Shown: in pieces, positions 1,854-10,081 of the stretch
Position numbering within the stretch: position 1 is the first letter of the stretch
Layout of the letters: every line of letters starts with the position of its first letter
Assembly (NCBI GenBank): GCA_030611415.1
Contig: JAUWPW010000011.1
Span: 1-32,899, forward strand
DNA length: 32,899 nucleotides
Direction of reading: 5' to 3'
Source: Candidatus Bipolaricaulota bacterium
Lineage (GTDB): Bacteria; Bipolaricaulota; Bipolaricaulia; UBA7950; UBA9294
Translations under genes and position numbers: made by a program
Notes under the pieces: generated by a model
The model's database searches: none
The model's input: only the letters and a program-made list of their open reading frames with translations
What the model was told of the DNA's origin: nothing

Positions 1854-3218
1854 CTACAGAATATAACGTGACAGATTGGGATCCTCAACGATTCCAGCAA
1901 GCTGCGCAACCACGTACTCCTCATCAATTACAACCTTCTTGCCACGCTTATCGCCTGCGGTAAACGATATCTCTTCTACCAGTTTCTCCATCGCCGTAGA
2001 CAACCGTCGCGCACCAATGTTCTCCGTTGTTTGATTAAGCTCATACGCAATCTCTGCGATTCTCACTATTGCATCCTCGGTAAATTCAAGTTTAACCCCT
2101 TCTACCGCAAGAAGCGCTTCGTACTGCTTAGTAAGAGCATCCTTAGGTTCACACAAAATGCGACGAAAATCCGCGGCACTGAGATTATCCAACTCCACGC
2201 GAATCGGCAGCCGCCCTTGTAATTCAGGAATAAGGTCGGATGGCTTCGACATGTTGAATGCACCGGCTGCGATGAACAGAATATTCTCCGTACCAACAGT
2301 CCCATAACGAGTACGAACGCGAGTTCCTTCCAGAAATGGCAGCAAATCCCGTTGCACTCCTTGACGAGACACTCCTGGACTACTTCCCTCATCCTGCCCA
2401 CTGACGGCAATTTTGTCGATCTCATCCAAAAAGATGATCCCCATCTCTTCCGCTAGTTGTAGTCCCTGCTGCCGTATATCATCCATGCTGATCAATTCGT
2501 CGATTGTCTGCTCGAACAGGATCGGCCTTGCCTCACGGATCTGCAAACGCTGTTTTTTTCGCGAGGATGGAAAAATCCCCGAAAGCACACTGCCCATATC
2601 AATACCCAACTGATCTCCACTATCTTGGCTGAAAATCTCCAGTTGAGGAACCACCTGTACTTCAATCGTAATCTCAATGTAACGTTCCTCGAGGTCACCA
2701 TCAATAAGCTTCCTGCGCAATTTGTCACGCGTCTTACCCACACTCTCCCTGCGCTCTTCATCGGATTCGGTGATCGGCAGTAACACACCAAGTATCTTTT
2801 CCGTAACAATCCCTTGTGCTTCCTCTTCTACACGTAGTACTTCCTCTGAACGAACCATGCCAATTGCCACACCAACCAAATCACGAATCATCGACTCCAC
2901 ATCACGCCCAACGTAGCCAACCTCCGTAAATTTCGTTGCCTCTACCTTGACAAATGGGCAACTGGTAAGCCGCGCCAGCCGCCTCGAAATCTCCGTTTTT
3001 CCTACACCGGTTGGCCCAATCATTAGGATGTTTTTAGGCTTGATCTCCTCGCGAATTTCCCCTTCAACCAGCTGACGTCGCATCCTATTCCGTAAGGCAA
3101 TTGCCACTGCACGCTTTGCCCTCTCTTGACCAATAATGTACTTGTCAAGCTGGGCAACAATCTGTTTTGGAGTCAAACCACTGACCCCATTACAAGAAAC
3201 TTCAACCAACTCACCCAT
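1854..3218 (-). CDS. hslU: HslU, ATPase subunit of the HslUV protease
   Basis: AAA+ unfoldase that feeds proteins to the HslV peptidase in the cytoplasm. Visible features are Walker A GPTGVGKT near residue 68, the FTEVGYVGRDVESMIRDLV segment typical of HslU after it, an insertion (I) domain in the middle, and Walker B IIFLDEIDKIA. The C-terminus DPNLSRYIL matches the conserved HslU tail that docks into HslV. The length of 454 residues is normal. A run of G residues (AAGGGGGG on the coding strand) just before the ATG is the ribosome binding site. It starts 12 bases after hslV, so the two are co-transcribed. Confidence 0.97.
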   Translation of the reverse strand: MGELVEVSCNGVSGLTPKQIVAQLDKYIIGQERAKRAVAIALRNRMRRQLVEGEIREEIKPKNILMIGPTGVGKTEISRRLARLTSCPFVKVEATKFTEVGYVGRDVESMIRDLVGVAIGMVRSEEVLRVEEEAQGIVTEKILGVLLPITESDEERRESVGKTRDKLRRKLIDGDLEERYIEITIEVQVVPQLEIFSQDSGDQLGIDMGSVLSGIFPSSRKKQRLQIREARPILFEQTIDELISMDDIRQQGLQLAEEMGIIFLDEIDKIAVSGQDEGSSPGVSRQGVQRDLLPFLEGTRVRTRYGTVGTENILFIAAGAFNMSKPSDLIPELQGRLPIRVELDNLSAADFRRILCEPKDALTKQYEALLAVEGVKLEFTEDAIVRIAEIAYELNQTTENIGARRLSTAMEKLVEEISFTAGDKRGKKVVIDEEYVVAQLAGIVEDPNLSRYIL

Positions 3219-3230
3219 TTCCCCCCTTTT

Positions 3231-3776
3231 TTACCAAGTAACTTCTTCTAAGGTAATCTCTTGATTAGTGTAAATATCAATTGAACTTGCGATCTCAAGT
3301 GATTTGCGTGCAACATCAGCAATCGACAGATCAGACACAGAGAGCATTCCCTTGGCTGCTGCCAAAGCATACAAACCACCGGATCCAATCCCAATCATTC
3401 CCTCATCTGGTTCGAGCACATCGCCGGCACCAGACACCATCAAGATCCCTTCTTCGCTGACGGTCACTAGAACCGCTTCTAAGTGACGTAAAACCCGATC
3501 AGTACGCCATTCTTTCGTCATTTCCACTGCAGCTCGCCGCAGATGTCCATCATACTTACTGAGCTTTCCCTCAAGTCTATCCAGCAGGGCAAGGCAATCT
3601 GCAGTTGCGCCGGCAAATCCAACAAGAACTTGACCATCATGCAAGCGATATACTTTCTTGGTGCTACTCTTGATGACCGCGCTCTCCAGGGTAGCTTGTC
3701 CATCGCTAGCAATTACAGCGCGGTGCTCAGTTGTAGAATAAATACCGATAATTGTTGTGCCCTTACAATGTGACAT
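3231..3776 (-). CDS. hslV: HslV, peptidase subunit of the HslUV protease
   Basis: Threonine peptidase of the proteasome beta-subunit fold, partner of HslU. The chain begins MSHCKGTTII, so the catalytic N-terminal threonine would be Thr7, exposed after removal of a six-residue leader. The conserved segments ASDGQAT, STKKVYRL (with the active-site lysine), GFAGATADCLALLDRLE, EWRTDRVLRHLEA, IGSGGLYALAAAKG and the C-terminal IYTNQEITLEE are all present. The length of 181 residues is typical. No strong Shine-Dalgarno sequence precedes the ATG. It sits between the DciA-like gene (12 bases upstream) and hslU (12 bases downstream). Confidence 0.96.
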   Translation of the reverse strand: MSHCKGTTIIGIYSTTEHRAVIASDGQATLESAVIKSSTKKVYRLHDGQVLVGFAGATADCLALLDRLEGKLSKYDGHLRRAAVEMTKEWRTDRVLRHLEAVLVTVSEEGILMVSGAGDVLEPDEGMIGIGSGGLYALAAAKGMLSVSDLSIADVARKSLEIASSIDIYTNQEITLEEVTW

Positions 3777-3788
3777 AGGTCTATTATT

Positions 3789-4328
3789 CTAGTCTACCGA
3801 GCCGCTATCCGCAATCCCACCAAAACAACATCCAGGACAGATGTCCCCCTCACCACTAAAGACAACTCCACAGCAAGAGCAGCGTTTTGCCCCTCGTCCA
3901 AGCTGTATTTCTTCCCACTTACGAACCGTCAAGTAGAAGCGTTCAAACAACTCACGCAATTCTGGATCCGCCACTTGGGCAAACAGTGTATGTGCCTCAG
4001 CACGATCGCTCGCTAAGAGCCTACCCAAATTCTTGCTTACGGGTTGAGTTCTCGCAAATCTCCCGGGCACGAAACGGATCCTTTTCACAATGTCTTTCGC
4101 TACAAGCTTATTGATTCGCTTGATATATTCGTCGCCAAGTAACGACAGATCCTGTGCTATTGATGGGGAAGAGACCTCTATCCACAGTGTTCCTTTAGAG
4201 AAACGTTGTGCTCGTGTAAGTGTAGCAATTGTTTTACCGCATACCTTATCCCACAGGAGAAGTGTTTGTTGGTAACAGTAATCTTTCCACAAGTTATTCT
4301 TTCTTAGTACTGTTTCTACCCAGTTCAT
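3789..4328 (-). CDS. DciA-like (DUF721) protein with a C-terminal zinc ribbon
   Basis: The N-terminal half (about residues 5-100) resembles the DUF721/DciA family: a KH-like region with LLWDKVCGKTIATLTRAQRFSKG, then TLWIEVSSPSIAQDLSLLGDEYIKRIN. DciA proteins help load the replicative helicase in bacteria lacking DnaC or DnaI; that role here is inferred. The C-terminus carries CSCC, ten residues, then CPGC, a likely zinc ribbon that the short forms of the family do not need. AGGAG lies eight bases before the ATG. The gene borders the putative oriC and dnaA, which fits a replication role. The length of 179 residues is in the family range. The gene body also holds two DnaA-box-like sites (4178-4186 and 4283-4291). 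Confidence 0.8.
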   Translation of the reverse strand: MNWVETVLRKNNLWKDYCYQQTLLLWDKVCGKTIATLTRAQRFSKGTLWIEVSSPSIAQDLSLLGDEYIKRINKLVAKDIVKRIRFVPGRFARTQPVSKNLGRLLASDRAEAHTLFAQVADPELRELFERFYLTVRKWEEIQLGRGAKRCSCCGVVFSGEGDICPGCCFGGIADSGSVD

Positions 4329-4358
4329 TATTAAACTCCTGTAGTAGTTGTAGGCAAA

Positions 4359-4562
4359 TACTTTACTGTGGAAAAGTGATCCTTTGCCTCTCTATATCTT
4401 AGCTAAACTTGTGGAAAATCCTGTGGAGAAACTGCTGAAACAGTTAAAAACCAGTGGATATAGGCGGTGGAGAAATTCGCCTCTGAAAGTCAACAAGACT
4501 TTTCCACAGTAAAGTAGCGTTTTTTACCCTTTTTGCTCCACTTTTCCACAGGGTTTTCCACA
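4359..4562. other. oriC: Putative chromosomal replication origin (oriC)
   Basis: The non-coding gap between dnaA and the DciA-like gene (4329-4584) holds a dense set of DnaA boxes. On one strand TGTGGAAAA occurs at 4367-4375 and 4410-4418, with TGTGGAGAA at 4422-4430. In the opposite orientation TTTTCCACA occurs at 4500-4508, 4542-4550 and 4554-4562. The first box of each group lies in a 19-base perfect inverted repeat (4359-4377 and 4498-4516). Weaker matches are at 4453-4461 and 4466-4474. There is no long AT-only block, so the unwinding element is not obvious; 4390-4409 is one candidate. Position beside dnaA is typical for bacterial origins. Confidence 0.85.
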
Positions 4563-4584
4563 GCATGATCCGAGGCATTCTTGC

Positions 4585-5928
4585 CTAACTAGTACGAAAC
4601 CGTGAATTTAGGTCTTCCTGAATTTCCTTAATTTCGCCATACAAAAGTGGAGTTTCTTCGATTAGAGTCTTGATTTTCATGTAGGAATGCATGATTGTTG
4701 TGTGATCACGATTGCCGAATTCTTTTGCAATTGCGGGAAAGGAATGATTGGTCATTTCACGGGCAAGATAAATGCTAATATGTCGCGGCTGAGAGATCTC
4801 TTTTTTTCTACTTGATCCCTCCAAATCATGTAGCTTGAGGTGATAGCGACTGGCTACTTCTTCTTTGATGTGAGCAATGCTTAGCGGCTTTCGTTTGCCT
4901 TCTTCTGGAAGCATCGTTTCCAGGTTACTCGGTGTTAGCTCTTTCCCTTCAAGCTCGGCGTAAGCAATGGCCTTTACTAATGCACCTTCCAGGACACGAA
5001 CATTAGAGGAGATACGGCTGGCGATGAGTTCCAGAATAGTGTCATCGACTGTGAGTCCACGGGTATTCGCCTTTTCTCGCAAAATTGCAATTCGTGTTTC
5101 TAAGTCAGGTGGCTGGATGTCAGCAACTAATCCCCAACGGAACCGGGAGACCAGTCTTTCCTGTAATCCAGAAAGTTCTTCTGGAGGACGATCACTGGAG
5201 AGTACGATTTGTTTCTCACTACCGTAAAGCTCATTAAAGGTATGAAATAGCTCCTCTTGTGTGCCTTCCTTTCCTTCCAAGAAGTGCACGTCATCGATTA
5301 GTAATAGGTCGATGCGTCGGTATTTCTCACGGAAGGCAGATGTGGTATTATTGCGGATTGAATTGATCAGTTCTATGGCAAACCGTTCGGAAGTTGTATA
5401 TACAACAGCTTTAGGAACTCCAGAAGATATGATGAAGTTGCCGGTTGCCTGTAGCAGATGGGTTTTCCCGAGCCCGACGCTGCCGTAGATAAACAGAGGA
5501 TTGTACGCTTTTCCGGGTGCTTCAGCAACGGCTAGTGAGGCGGCGTAAGCAAGATGATTGTTGTTTCCGCGCACGAAGTGTTCGAATGTATAATCGGGGT
5601 TGAGTGGGAGCGTATTACGTATCTGTGTTGAAGTAATGGAGGGTTCAAGCTTCGGCGGATCGGGTGTGGGTAGTGTTTGACCGGTAACTTGGAGCGTGAT
5701 AGTAACTTGCCTTGCACAAACCTCAGATGCTATATCCTCTAACAAGCTGCGATAGCGACGCTCAATGCCACCCTTGTAGAAACTGGTCGGAACACCAATT
5801 AGTAGTGAATGGTTCTTAAACTCTAGAAGACGAGCATTGGCAAACCAGGTTTCAAAGCTCGTTTGTGAAATCTCTCTCTGTAGCTTTTCCCGCACGTGTT
5901 TCCAGATAGTTAAGGGACTCTCATTCAT
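4585..5928 (-). CDS. dnaA: Chromosomal replication initiator DnaA
   Basis: Binds DnaA boxes at oriC and opens the duplex. Domain I covers about residues 1-80 (SFETWFANARLLEF), followed by a short linker. Domain III has Walker A GSVGLGKT near residue 149 and Walker B LLLIDDVHFL. Domain IV carries the DnaA signature RDHTTIMHSYMKIK. The length is 447 residues. The ATG at 5928 is chosen over one five codons upstream because GAGGGG sits just before it on the coding strand. The gene is transcribed toward the box cluster that begins 23 bases after its stop. A promoter candidate lies between it and tRNA-Phe. Confidence 0.97.
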   Translation of the reverse strand: MNESPLTIWKHVREKLQREISQTSFETWFANARLLEFKNHSLLIGVPTSFYKGGIERRYRSLLEDIASEVCARQVTITLQVTGQTLPTPDPPKLEPSITSTQIRNTLPLNPDYTFEHFVRGNNNHLAYAASLAVAEAPGKAYNPLFIYGSVGLGKTHLLQATGNFIISSGVPKAVVYTTSERFAIELINSIRNNTTSAFREKYRRIDLLLIDDVHFLEGKEGTQEELFHTFNELYGSEKQIVLSSDRPPEELSGLQERLVSRFRWGLVADIQPPDLETRIAILREKANTRGLTVDDTILELIASRISSNVRVLEGALVKAIAYAELEGKELTPSNLETMLPEEGKRKPLSIAHIKEEVASRYHLKLHDLEGSSRKKEISQPRHISIYLAREMTNHSFPAIAKEFGNRDHTTIMHSYMKIKTLIEETPLLYGEIKEIQEDLNSRFRTS

Positions 5929-5951
5929 TGTTCCCCTCATCATATTATTAT

Positions 5952-5990: not shown

Positions 5991-6066
5991 TGGTGCCGAG
6001 GCCCAGACTCGAACTGGGGACACCGGCCTTTTCAGGGCCGTGCTCTACCACCTGAGCTACCTCGGC
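5991..6066 (-). tRNA. tRNA-Phe (GAA)
   Basis: The minus strand folds into a full cloverleaf: acceptor stem GCCGAGG with CCTCGGC, D arm with AGCTCAGGTGGTAGAGC, anticodon loop CTGAAAA reading GAA, and T arm with GTTCGAGTC. The 3' ACCA is encoded. It is the last gene of the six-tRNA cluster and the only one of them with an encoded CCA. Confidence 0.97.
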
Positions 6067-6078
6067 ATATCCAGCAAG

Positions 6079-6154
6079 CGGGGACGACCGGATTTGAACC
6101 GGCGATCTCTGGAGTGACAATCCAGCGTCCTAAACCAAGCTAGACCACGCCCCC
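6079..6154 (-). tRNA. tRNA-Asp (GTC)
   Basis: The acceptor stem GGGGGCG pairs with CGTCCCC (one G-T pair), the anticodon stem CTGGA/TCCAG encloses TTGTCAC with anticodon GTC, and the T loop is TTCAAAT. The D loop is somewhat long, giving 76 bases without CCA. The 3' end is followed by CTT, so CCA must be added enzymatically. Confidence 0.96.
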
Positions 6155-6171
6155 GAAACACGACAACTCAT

Positions 6172-6244
6172 TGGGCGAGACAGGACTTGAACCTGTGACC
6201 TTCCGGATGTAAGCCGGATGCTCTCCCAGCTGAGCTACTCGCCC
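6172..6244 (-). tRNA. tRNA-Val (TAC)
   Basis: The acceptor stem GGGCGAG pairs with CTCGCCC, the anticodon stem TCCGG/CCGGA encloses CTTACAT with anticodon TAC, and the T loop is TTCAAGT. It is 73 bases long. No CCA is encoded; the discriminator base A is followed by ATG. Confidence 0.97.
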
Positions 6245-6287
6245 ATTATAGCTCAAGCACTTAGTTTGCTACAAATCTTTGTTTCAG

Positions 6288-6360
6288 TGTCCCCAAGGGG
6301 ATTTGAACCCCTGCCGCCGGGATGAAAACCCGGTATCCTAGGCCGCTAGATGATGGGGAC
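6288..6360 (-). tRNA. tRNA-Glu (TTC)
   Basis: The acceptor stem GTCCCCA pairs with TGGGGAC, the anticodon stem CCGGG/CCCGG encloses TTTTCAT with anticodon TTC, and the T loop is TTCAAAT. It is 73 bases long with no encoded CCA. Confidence 0.97.
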
Positions 6361-6408
6361 AGTTACAAAAAGAATTATAGGGGTCCAGATGCGTCTTTTC
6401 AATTAGAG

Positions 6409-6480
6409 TGGGTCGTGCTGGATTTGAACCAGCGGCTCCCTGATTAAAAGTCAGGTGCTCTACCCCTGAGCTAACGACCC
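6409..6480 (-). tRNA. tRNA-Lys (TTT)
   Basis: The acceptor stem GGGTCGT pairs with ACGACCC, the anticodon stem CCTGA/TCAGG encloses CTTTTAA with anticodon TTT, and the T loop is TTCAAAT. It is 72 bases long with no encoded CCA. Its acceptor stem is identical to that of the neighbouring tRNA-Lys (CTT). Confidence 0.97.
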
Positions 6481-6503
6481 GAATTTCTAATGTGGGAAAG
6501 ATA

Positions 6504-6577
6504 TGGGTCGTGCAGGACTCGAACCTGCAACCGACGGATTAAGAGTCCGTTGCTCTGCCAAATTGAGCTAACGACCC
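6504..6577 (-). tRNA. tRNA-Lys (CTT)
   Basis: The acceptor stem GGGTCGT pairs with ACGACCC, the anticodon stem ACGGA/TCCGT encloses CTCTTAA with anticodon CTT, and the T loop is TTCGAGT. It is 74 bases long with no encoded CCA. It is the promoter-proximal gene of the cluster. Confidence 0.97.
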
Positions 6578-8368: not shown

Positions 8369-10020
8369 TTAGCCGTCGGTTGTGTGCTTCTTGTACAGGT
8401 AGCGCTTGATGTCAAGTTTCACGCTTTTCTCGAATGGTTGATCTGTTAAGGCAATAAGGTCCCTATTCTTGATCCGCTTAAACATGGCCAGGTTTTCGCT
8501 TCTTTCTCTGATCTGTTTCCAAATATGATCGATTGCATCGTCAGATTCAGTGACCCCTAGTTCGTTAAGTGTTGGCCAATTTGGGTAGACCATAGCCGCA
8601 ACGGCAGGCGCACCCTGACGCTCTCCTTCGTAGATCATTATCTCTTCAATTGCAGGGATGGTTGAAAGTTCCCACTCGACTTCCTCAGGATACACATTCT
8701 TGCCGGTTTCAAGGACAATTACGTTCTTTGCCCGACCAGAGATAAGGATCCTATTATTGCTGACAAGGCTGCCCAAATCACCTGTGTGAAACCATCCATC
8801 CTCGCTGATGACTTCCCTGGTTGCCTCGGGATTCTTGTAGTAACCGGTCATTATGTTTGGCCCACGGGCGATGATCTCCCCAACGCCATTCTTATCTGGG
8901 TGATCAATTCGAAGCTCCACTCCTTCAATAGCGGCCATTCCAGGCTCACTAGGAAACTGCTCGCACATGCTAAGCACGGGAGAGGTTTCAGTGAGTCCAT
9001 AACCTTCTAACATCCCGATTCCCATTCGACGGAGACCTTTTGCCACTTTGTTATTGAGGGGCGCCCCTCCAGAAACGAGAAACCGGAAATTCTTGCCGAA
9101 CAGCTTCCGTGTTAACAGTTTTCCCATTAGCGTGGGGGAAAGACGATTGATCGTTCTCTTTATCAGGCTTTTCTCAATTGAACTGGATATTTTTCCGTAG
9201 AGTACGTGGTATAGCTTGGGAACGCCCAGTAGCATCGTTGCCTTGCTTTCAGCATTACCTGAGTAAGGTTGTGATCGACAGGAGCGTAGGTTGTTGTTGC
9301 CCCTGAAATCACACAAGTAAGTAGCGTAACTGTCAATCCGTAGATGTGGTACCAGGGAACGATGGAAAGGAAGTTATCTTGCGTGGAAAGGTCAACGATC
9401 TTACAACAGGCAAGGGCATTGGAAGTGATGTTGGCATGAGTAAGCATTGCCCCTTTAGCATTGCCGGTTGTCCCAGACGTATACATAAGGATTGCAAGGT
9501 CACCTGGGCTGGTGTCCACAAGGGAAAGAGGTTTCTTGTTAAGCAGTAAAGCATCGAGGAATAGCGTGTCTTCTGTTGTAGGACGATCCATGGAGATAAG
9601 GAACAGATCAGTGACGAAATCTTGCTTGGTTGCCTCCAGCTTGGCAAGCTTTTCTCCCGAGACAATAACCCCTTTGACGCCGGCCTCGGTCAAGATTCGT
9701 TCGATTTCTGCCTGTTGCAGTTCGGGGTCTAGTGGGACTACGGTGGCTCCACAGTGTAGGATGGCGAAAAAAGTGGTTGCCCATGCAGCTCGCGGTCTAG
9801 AGATGAGAGCGATCTTGTCTCCTTTCTCGACACCTAATTCGGTGAGGGCACTAGCTAAGCGAGCAACTCTCTCGCCCAATCGACCATAGGAGATCTCGTT
9901 TAGAATCAGACGAATGCCGCGACTATGTTTGCGCTCCTTAGGGATCAACATACGCAAGGCCACGTCGTCCCGATAGGAGGTAACAGCCTGTTGAAACAGT
10001 TCATTAATTGTTGGATACAT
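8369..10020 (-). pseudogene. AMP-dependent acyl-CoA synthetase, split by a single frameshift
   Basis: Adenylate-forming enzyme that would activate a fatty or other carboxylic acid to acyl-CoA. The N-terminal part (10020 down to about 9244) has MYTSGTTGNAKGAMLTH. The C-terminal part (about 9244 down to 8369) has EGYGLTETSPV, GWFHTGDLGSL, LISGRAKNVIVLETGKNVYPEEVE and the late KLDIKRY with a probable catalytic lysine. The two parts are in different frames and join near 9241-9249, where adding one base would give one continuous protein of about 550 residues, normal for the family. The start at 10020 is preferred because AAGGA precedes it. It is 61 bases downstream of xseB. This may be a recent mutation or a sequencing or assembly error; all motifs are preserved, favouring a recent or artefactual cause. 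Confidence 0.85.
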
Positions 10021-10081
10021 GATTACCGTCCTTATCATATCTTACGGGCTTTTTCATAATGAATACGATTATAGGGAGGAA

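Follow-up and report, generated by a model that had tools for sequence, protein, structure and literature searches.

The intergenic region between dnaA and dciA in the genome of a Candidatus Bipolaricaulota bacterium is probably the chromosome replication origin (oriC) of this organism. The window, by which is meant the whole stretch of 32,899 nucleotides that was analysed, is contig 38 of a MAG of 1.33 Mb in 78 contigs, the nearest relatives of which are Candidatus Bipolaricaulota/Acetothermia MAGs. A literature search found no published origin for the phylum Bipolaricaulota, for which the DnaA box array described here is the predicted oriC. With considerable confidence, the region is read as a continuous oriC, in which two divergent DnaA oligomers would assemble on a rigid scaffold, with a bend, unwinding of the adjoining DNA and DciA-aided loading of the helicase.

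Gene context

The dnaA gene (4585..5943, minus strand) encodes a replication initiator of 452 amino acids that matches the TIGR00362 DnaA equivalog at 510 bits (cut-off 343.9) and contains the Pfam domains DnaA_N, Bac_DnaA and Bac_DnaA_C. The dciA gene (3789..4328, minus strand) encodes a probable DnaB helicase loader (PF05258 DciA, E 3e-14, above the cut-off), of which the genome has only one copy, and its 5' end is located inside the unstable DNA that adjoins the array. The gap of 256 bp between the two genes is filled by DnaA boxes, the nearest of which is 23 bp from the dnaA stop codon. Downstream of dciA are hslV (3231-3776, minus strand) and hslU (1854-3218, minus strand), both identified as NCBIfam equivalogs, and this synteny is kept in relatives. 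Scans of positions 4200-4700 for sigma-70 promoters and terminators gave no match, and the sole match of an Rfam search was a tRNA cluster. This cluster of six genes (Phe, Asp, Val, Glu, Lys and Lys; 5991-6577, minus strand), located upstream of dnaA, stands on the dnaA side where other genera have an upstream array.

Architecture of the DnaA box array

Six strong DnaA boxes start at 4367, 4410 and 4422 on the minus strand and at 4500, 4542 and 4554 on the plus strand, with spacings of 43 and 12 bp and of 42 and 12 bp; these coordinates, strands and spacings, listed in an initial annotation of the sequence, were all exact on re-scanning. Five of the six 9-mers are exactly TTTTCCACA, and the other (4422-4430) is TTCTCCACA, with one mismatch to TTWTNCACA. 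There is no overall excess of boxes in the window (40 with at most one mismatch, versus 52 expected); the cluster consists of six within 196 bp, versus about 0.3 expected (Poisson probability roughly 1e-6). The tandem pair TTTTCCACAGGGTTTTCCACA, allowing at most three mismatches, has two matches in the 1.33-Mb genome, both at the origin array, and its reversed control has none. The layout of the six boxes scores 53.0, versus a mean of 30.6 (sd 1.5) in shuffles. A chance accumulation of box-like 9-mers in this AT-rich gap has a negligible probability: the gap is moderately AT-rich, nothing else being in its favour, and chance is refuted by z values of about 15-20 against shuffles, by positions conserved throughout the class and by a pair motif that is unique in the genome.

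From aligned relatives and averaged box scores, the array comprises about 13 boxes, of which the six seen first are the strong members and about seven are weak. The parts list of the initial annotation was correct for the strong boxes and omitted the weak boxes, the trio-like repeat and the neighbouring dnaA and dciA genes. The array is composed of two opposed arms, left and right, an empty 43-bp spacer and a box proximal to the DNA unwinding element (DUE). With offsets counted in the sense of dnaA (offset 0 being position 4562), the left arm has strong boxes at 0, 12 and 54 and weak ones at 23, 34 and 67, all toward dnaA; the right arm has weak boxes at 88, 101, 111 and 121 and strong ones at 132 and 144, all toward dciA; and a detached box is found at offset 187, a 43-bp step beyond the right arm.

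The strong boxes of the left (dnaA-side) arm, on the plus strand, are all TTTTCCACA: a family-conserved box at its outer end (offset 0, 4554..4562), another at offset 12 (4542..4550), and one at offset 54 (4500..4508) that is invariant among the genera compared. The weak position at offset 23 (4531..4539, plus strand) has the degenerate sequence TTTTGCTCC, for which other genera have TTTTGCACC or TTTTCCGCC, and that at offset 34 (4520..4528, plus strand) is TTTTTTACC, for which other genera have TTTTTCACC or TTTTCCACC and family f7 a consensus box. The right (dciA-side) arm, on the minus strand, begins with weak boxes at offsets 88 (4466..4474, TTCTCCACC) and 101 (4453..4461, ATATCCACT), each a consensus box in f7, followed by two degenerate positions at offsets 111 and 121 (4433..4451), which have decayed in the window's genus and are TTTTCCACC and TTATACACA/TTATGCACA in sister genera. 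Its strong boxes are at offset 132 (4422..4430, TTCTCCACA) and at offset 144 (4410..4418, TTTTCCACA), the outer end of the contiguous arm. A spacer of 34 bp (4376..4409) then leads to the DUE-proximal box (offset 187, 4367..4375, minus strand, TTTTCCACA), which points at the trio repeat. The spacer is free in sequence and constant in length within the family (43 bp from start to start), and from this conservation of length alone it is proposed to be a bending site for HU. The weak positions, degenerate in the window's genus, are better in sister genera, kept within family f1 and mostly perfect boxes in f7, in which locus L195 has boxes at 0, 12, 34, 56 and 69 in one arm and 91, 104, 125, 137, 149 and 192 beyond it; the perfect boxes of f7 thus provide an independent check of the weak-position anatomy. 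Near-consensus boxes, conserved in the genus, are also present on the plus strand within dciA, at 4283-4291 (CTTTCCACA) and 4178-4186 (CTATCCACA).

The two groups of strong boxes were originally described as oppositely oriented, which the array comparison strongly supports, and as having the same spacing without mirrored order, which it does not. The 42-bp gap on the left and the 43-bp gap on the right are not equivalent, because weak boxes are present only in the former: the left gap, in which the weak boxes at +23 and +34 are conserved, has a between-genus identity of 0.64 (0.27 expected), whereas the empty right gap has 0.32 (0.26 by chance). By this comparison of sequences, the left single box is assigned as the inner member of the left arm, and the right single box as detached and DUE-proximal. 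Both pairs are at the outer ends of contiguous arms, so that the arms mirror each other and the detached box is an addition to them.

These observations bear on the suggestion that the locus consists of two half-origins derived by inverted duplication, with equal spacing since the groups are copies, which is considered very improbable. It would account for a 19-base perfect inverted repeat, confirmed here, of which one copy (4359..4377) surrounds the DUE-proximal box and the other (4498..4516) the single box of the left arm; for the paired boxes being inverted near-copies (4410-4430 and 4542-4562, 19 of 21 positions identical after inversion); and for the spacings of 42/12 and 43/12. However, inverted duplication would be expected to leave a mirrored order of single box and pair, the left gap has weak boxes and conserved sequence where the right gap has neither, the identity outside the boxes is confined to the genus (the 19-bp repeat is near-perfect only in the four species there), and the full arrays of f7 consist of two arms of five to six boxes and one detached box. 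Thus order, gap contents and genus-limited identity speak against duplication, and the other explanation first offered, a defined geometry of DnaA assembly, is strongly supported, more so than could have been seen from one sequence. The flank GTAAAGTA is a genus-specific sequence that follows two boxes whose places in the array differ in kind (4359-4377 and 4498-4516).

Conservation of the spacing ruler

The strong boxes of about 45 genomes in five families follow a ruler of 12/41-43/70-89/12/42-44 over an array of approximately 190 bp, and 16 genomes of the window's family have exactly 12/42/78/12/43. Family f1 supplied the template, with which other families were then scanned; in f2, f4 and f5, with DnaA identity down to about 55%, the ruler is 12/42-43/70-80/12/42-44, and z values relative to shuffles of equal freedom are mostly 10-30. 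No array match was found near dnaA or dciA in families f3, f6 and f8. The centre spacing is 70 in two species, 77-80 in most and 89 in three, and these two changes suggest that the centre varies roughly in steps of one helical turn. For the length of E. coli oriC, a change of one turn is reported as tolerated and that of part of a turn as not (Woelker and Messer, as cited in PMC4285127). A near-invariant ruler with a free spacer and helical-turn steps leads to a clean prediction of two-oligomer geometry, whereas the mutants of E. coli address the geometry of one DnaA oligomer at a time.

Skew, instability and trio-like repeats

GC skew was read on long contigs of relatives, the window's own genome being in 78 contigs. 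The minimum is at 240-250 kb on the 408-kb contig of a family member (dnaA at 244.7 kb), at 35-40 kb on a contig of 103 kb (dnaA starting at 39.3 kb, within the same 5-kb block), and at 160-180 kb on the single 1.32-Mb contig of a near-complete relative, where the skew is weak (dnaA at 178.4 kb). A 96-kb contig of genus g9 (G011:C17) has no clear skew turn at dnaA. The cumulative GC skew of the window itself has its minimum at approximately 4.5 kb. The locus thus combines a box cluster above chance, a skew minimum and an adjoining, easily melted element. Its initial identification as oriC withstood both the skew comparison and the comparison of boxes and spacings among relatives, and is also favoured by adjacency to dnaA.

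The probable DNA unwinding element, which comprises the trio repeat and the start of dciA (4265..4365), flanks the outermost box on the dciA side; by nearest-neighbour energies, no other 100-bp stretch of the window is as unstable. For 19 of 21 loci in relatives, the 60 bp of lowest stability coincide with the trios. A DnaA-trio-like repeat (4339..4353, plus strand; CTGTAGTAGTTGTAG, 5' to 3') is separated by 13 bp from the DUE-proximal box; it is of TAG type, with the 5' side of its strand leading away from the box, and reads 3'-GAT GTT GAT GAT-5' in that direction, matching (CTA)4 at 11 of 12 positions. Summed over 30 loci, matches to (CTA)4 total 296, versus 179 (sd 5.3) in shuffles, the relatives not being independent of each other; at the other outer flank of the array, such matches are at the chance level only. 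The strict BUS rule calls for at least three uninterrupted DnaA-trios (3'-NAN-5') within 16 bp of a DnaA box (PMC8287927). The longest uninterrupted run in the window is two, and therefore the repeat is named trio-like; the rule holds for nine of 34 loci in relatives, versus 6.7 by chance, and so has no discriminating power here. By analogy, the unwinding element of the window is proposed to work like a BUS, yet to lie outside its strict form. An artefact of the dciA leader or ribosome site was rejected as the source of the trio motif because the motif remains where dciA is gone. The sequences themselves show the layout of the array and its conservation, the register, the instability, the trio-like repeat, the skew minima and the gene content.

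Initiation proteins and proposed mechanism

The genome has three genes of the HU family (HU/IHF), one dnaB and one dciA. No candidate for DnaC/DnaI was found in it, a search for IstB/DnaC-type proteins having returned dnaA and one weak match (a 326-aa frame); the presence of PF05258 together with this absence of DnaC/DnaI is the pattern of DciA-type helicase loading. The DnaA protein retains the Walker A and B motifs, the arginine finger (R267) and the box-contact residues; compared with E. coli, it has I193 at V211, K225 at K243 and glycine at R245. In the incomplete MAGs of genera g2, g4 and g9, there is no match to PF05258 and no DnaC/DnaI candidate among the matches to PF01695. Seven genomes (G004, G006, G011, G017, G019, G023 and G025) have no PF05258 (DciA) match and no recognised DnaC/DnaI candidate, and hslV directly follows dnaA at the loci examined in them.

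The steps at the array, from DnaA binding through ordered filling of the boxes and bending to unwinding and helicase loading, are inferred, and by analogy with E. coli, B. subtilis and T. maritima initiation should proceed through divergent oligomers. ATP-DnaA would occupy the strong boxes first and then the weak boxes, mostly 10-13 bp apart, to form two head-to-tail oligomers that diverge on a rigid scaffold of approximately 190 bp in one helical register. A bend in the 43-bp spacer, probably made by HU, would allow the dciA-side oligomer to meet the detached DUE-proximal box, and together these would melt 4265-4365 and hold the strand at TAG-TAG-TTG-TAG. DciA, the only known loader found, would then help to put DnaB on the open strands.

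Comparison with known origins

The left and right DnaA regions of E. coli oriC are opposite in orientation, and the DNA that separates R1 from the other boxes is bent by IHF/HU (PMC10380432). The window resembles it in having opposed arrays of strong and weak boxes with a DUE at one outer end; in the outermost strong box (R1 in E. coli, 4367 in the window), which adjoins the DUE and points at it; in the spacer that follows this box (55 bp from R1 to R5M, start to start, versus 43 and 55 bp from the detached box to the two boxes of the pair in the window); and in size (180 bp from R1 to R4, versus 187 bp). It differs in the location of the array between dnaA and dciA, in having DciA and no DnaC, in the TAG trio-like repeats at its DUE, in the glycine of its DnaA at R245, and in the 43-bp spacer, which is conserved in length and not in sequence and so has no obvious IHF site.

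In B. subtilis, unwinding takes place at a DnaA box and trios (PMC6669920, PMC8287927). The incC/BUS region of B. subtilis is similar to the window in that the origin is downstream of dnaA and has the succession of box, short spacer, same-strand TAG-type trios and replication gene, but the next gene there is dnaN instead of dciA, and the window differs also in its interrupted run of trios (GAT GTT GAT GAT) and in boxes set in two opposed arms of fixed ruler. The oriC of Thermotoga maritima has TAG repeats (eTrio) that are bound by array-bound DnaA, and a presumed HU site between boxes (PMC10316083); it too belongs to a DciA-type organism with TAG repeats, but has five boxes of another consensus in a minimal origin of 149 bp, in contrast to six strong and about seven weak boxes. 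As judged from sequence, the predicted origin combines opposed arrays like those of E. coli with an unwinding element like that of B. subtilis.

Position of the array relative to dnaA

There are four ARRANGEMENTS of array, dnaA, trios and dciA among the relatives. The first, dnaA-array-trios-dciA, is that of the window and most of f1, f2, f4 and f5, and the outgroups suggest that it is ancestral; the second, array-dnaA-array-trios-dciA, is found in genus g10; the third, array-dnaA-(box)trios with or without dciA, in g2, g4, g5, g9 and g13; and the fourth, array-trios-dciA without dnaA, in f7. In the third, the array ends 215-260 bp before the dnaA start codon and the unstable DNA remains at the trios, approximately 1.5 kb from the array; thus contiguity of array and trios is not required. 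The DnaA tree implies at least four changes of state, and the split state may have arisen once or several times. Genera that lack dciA have not lost the array, as was first supposed: a scan upstream of dnaA found that it had moved there. A link between loss of DciA and the split state was given up in view of g5 and g13, whose origins are split although both keep dciA.

Clusters of boxes that flank dnaA on either side, as in the bipartite origins of Helicobacter pylori and B. subtilis (oriC1/oriC2), are absent from the window and present in g10 and, as an array upstream with a box and trios downstream, in the five sister genera split by dnaA (g2, g4, g5, g9 and g13). The relatives differ from bipartite origins in that their rigid array may be downstream or upstream of dnaA, on both sides, or away from it. 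The boxes of the H. pylori origin share a single orientation (PMC4285127), and the same source describes it as unknown why dnaA divides some bacterial origins in two. Bipolaricaulota offer a natural series within one class, with the array on either side of dnaA and the melting site fixed, so that contiguous, duplicated and split origins lend themselves to comparison on a background that is otherwise nearly constant. That the array of approximately 190 bp is a rigid, portable DnaA-assembly module, moved as one piece relative to dnaA while its ruler and helical register stay nearly unchanged, is put forward tentatively, with rather less than even confidence; if this were true, a DnaA loop would have to bridge about 1.5 kb in the split forms.

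The detachment of the array from the trios in five genera, where it is upstream of dnaA, would also suit a DnaA-binding site that is mainly regulatory, whether for autoregulation of dnaA/dciA or for titration or nucleotide exchange as at datA/DARS, with the DUE-proximal box and trios alone initiating replication; basal unwinding in B. subtilis likewise involves box#6/7 and trios, the distal boxes acting remotely (PMC6669920). This explanation is judged unlikely. The outgroup families keep array and trios contiguous, with little variation in the distance from the end of the array to the trios, and in f7 the array stays with the trios and dciA although dnaA is absent there, so that autoregulation of dnaA could not be its core role; moreover, an arrangement in two opposed arrays is that of E. 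coli oriC and not of datA or DARS (PMC10380432). The preferred reading remains that of an array that is part of the origin itself. In f7, dnaA is on another contig in one genome and was not found in two (G040 and G057, with no Bac_DnaA_C match at all), possibly owing to gaps in the MAGs, and the skew near the array without dnaA is consistent with an origin there and indecisive. At L193, L195 and L196 of this family, the array is beside dciA without dnaA, and hslVU is next in L195 and L196.

Some loci have more than one array. L026, L086 and L087 (g10) have a second full array, of the same ruler, from 353 to 156 bp upstream of dnaA; the idea that it is a recent copy of the downstream array is unsupported, the two having an identity of approximately 0.51 in fixed register. 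At L005 (4166-7588, contig C21 of G008), dnaA and the array are present in tandem with a period of 1,741 bp, exact over about 1.68 kb, which may reflect either recent duplication of dnaA together with the origin or an artefact of assembly. Within the window, an AMP-binding (acyl-CoA ligase) gene (8369-10038, minus strand) is broken into two overlapping ORFs in different frames, one encoding the N-terminal half (9163-10038) and the other the C-terminal half (8369-9316); the break may represent a frameshift, a pseudogene or an assembly error.
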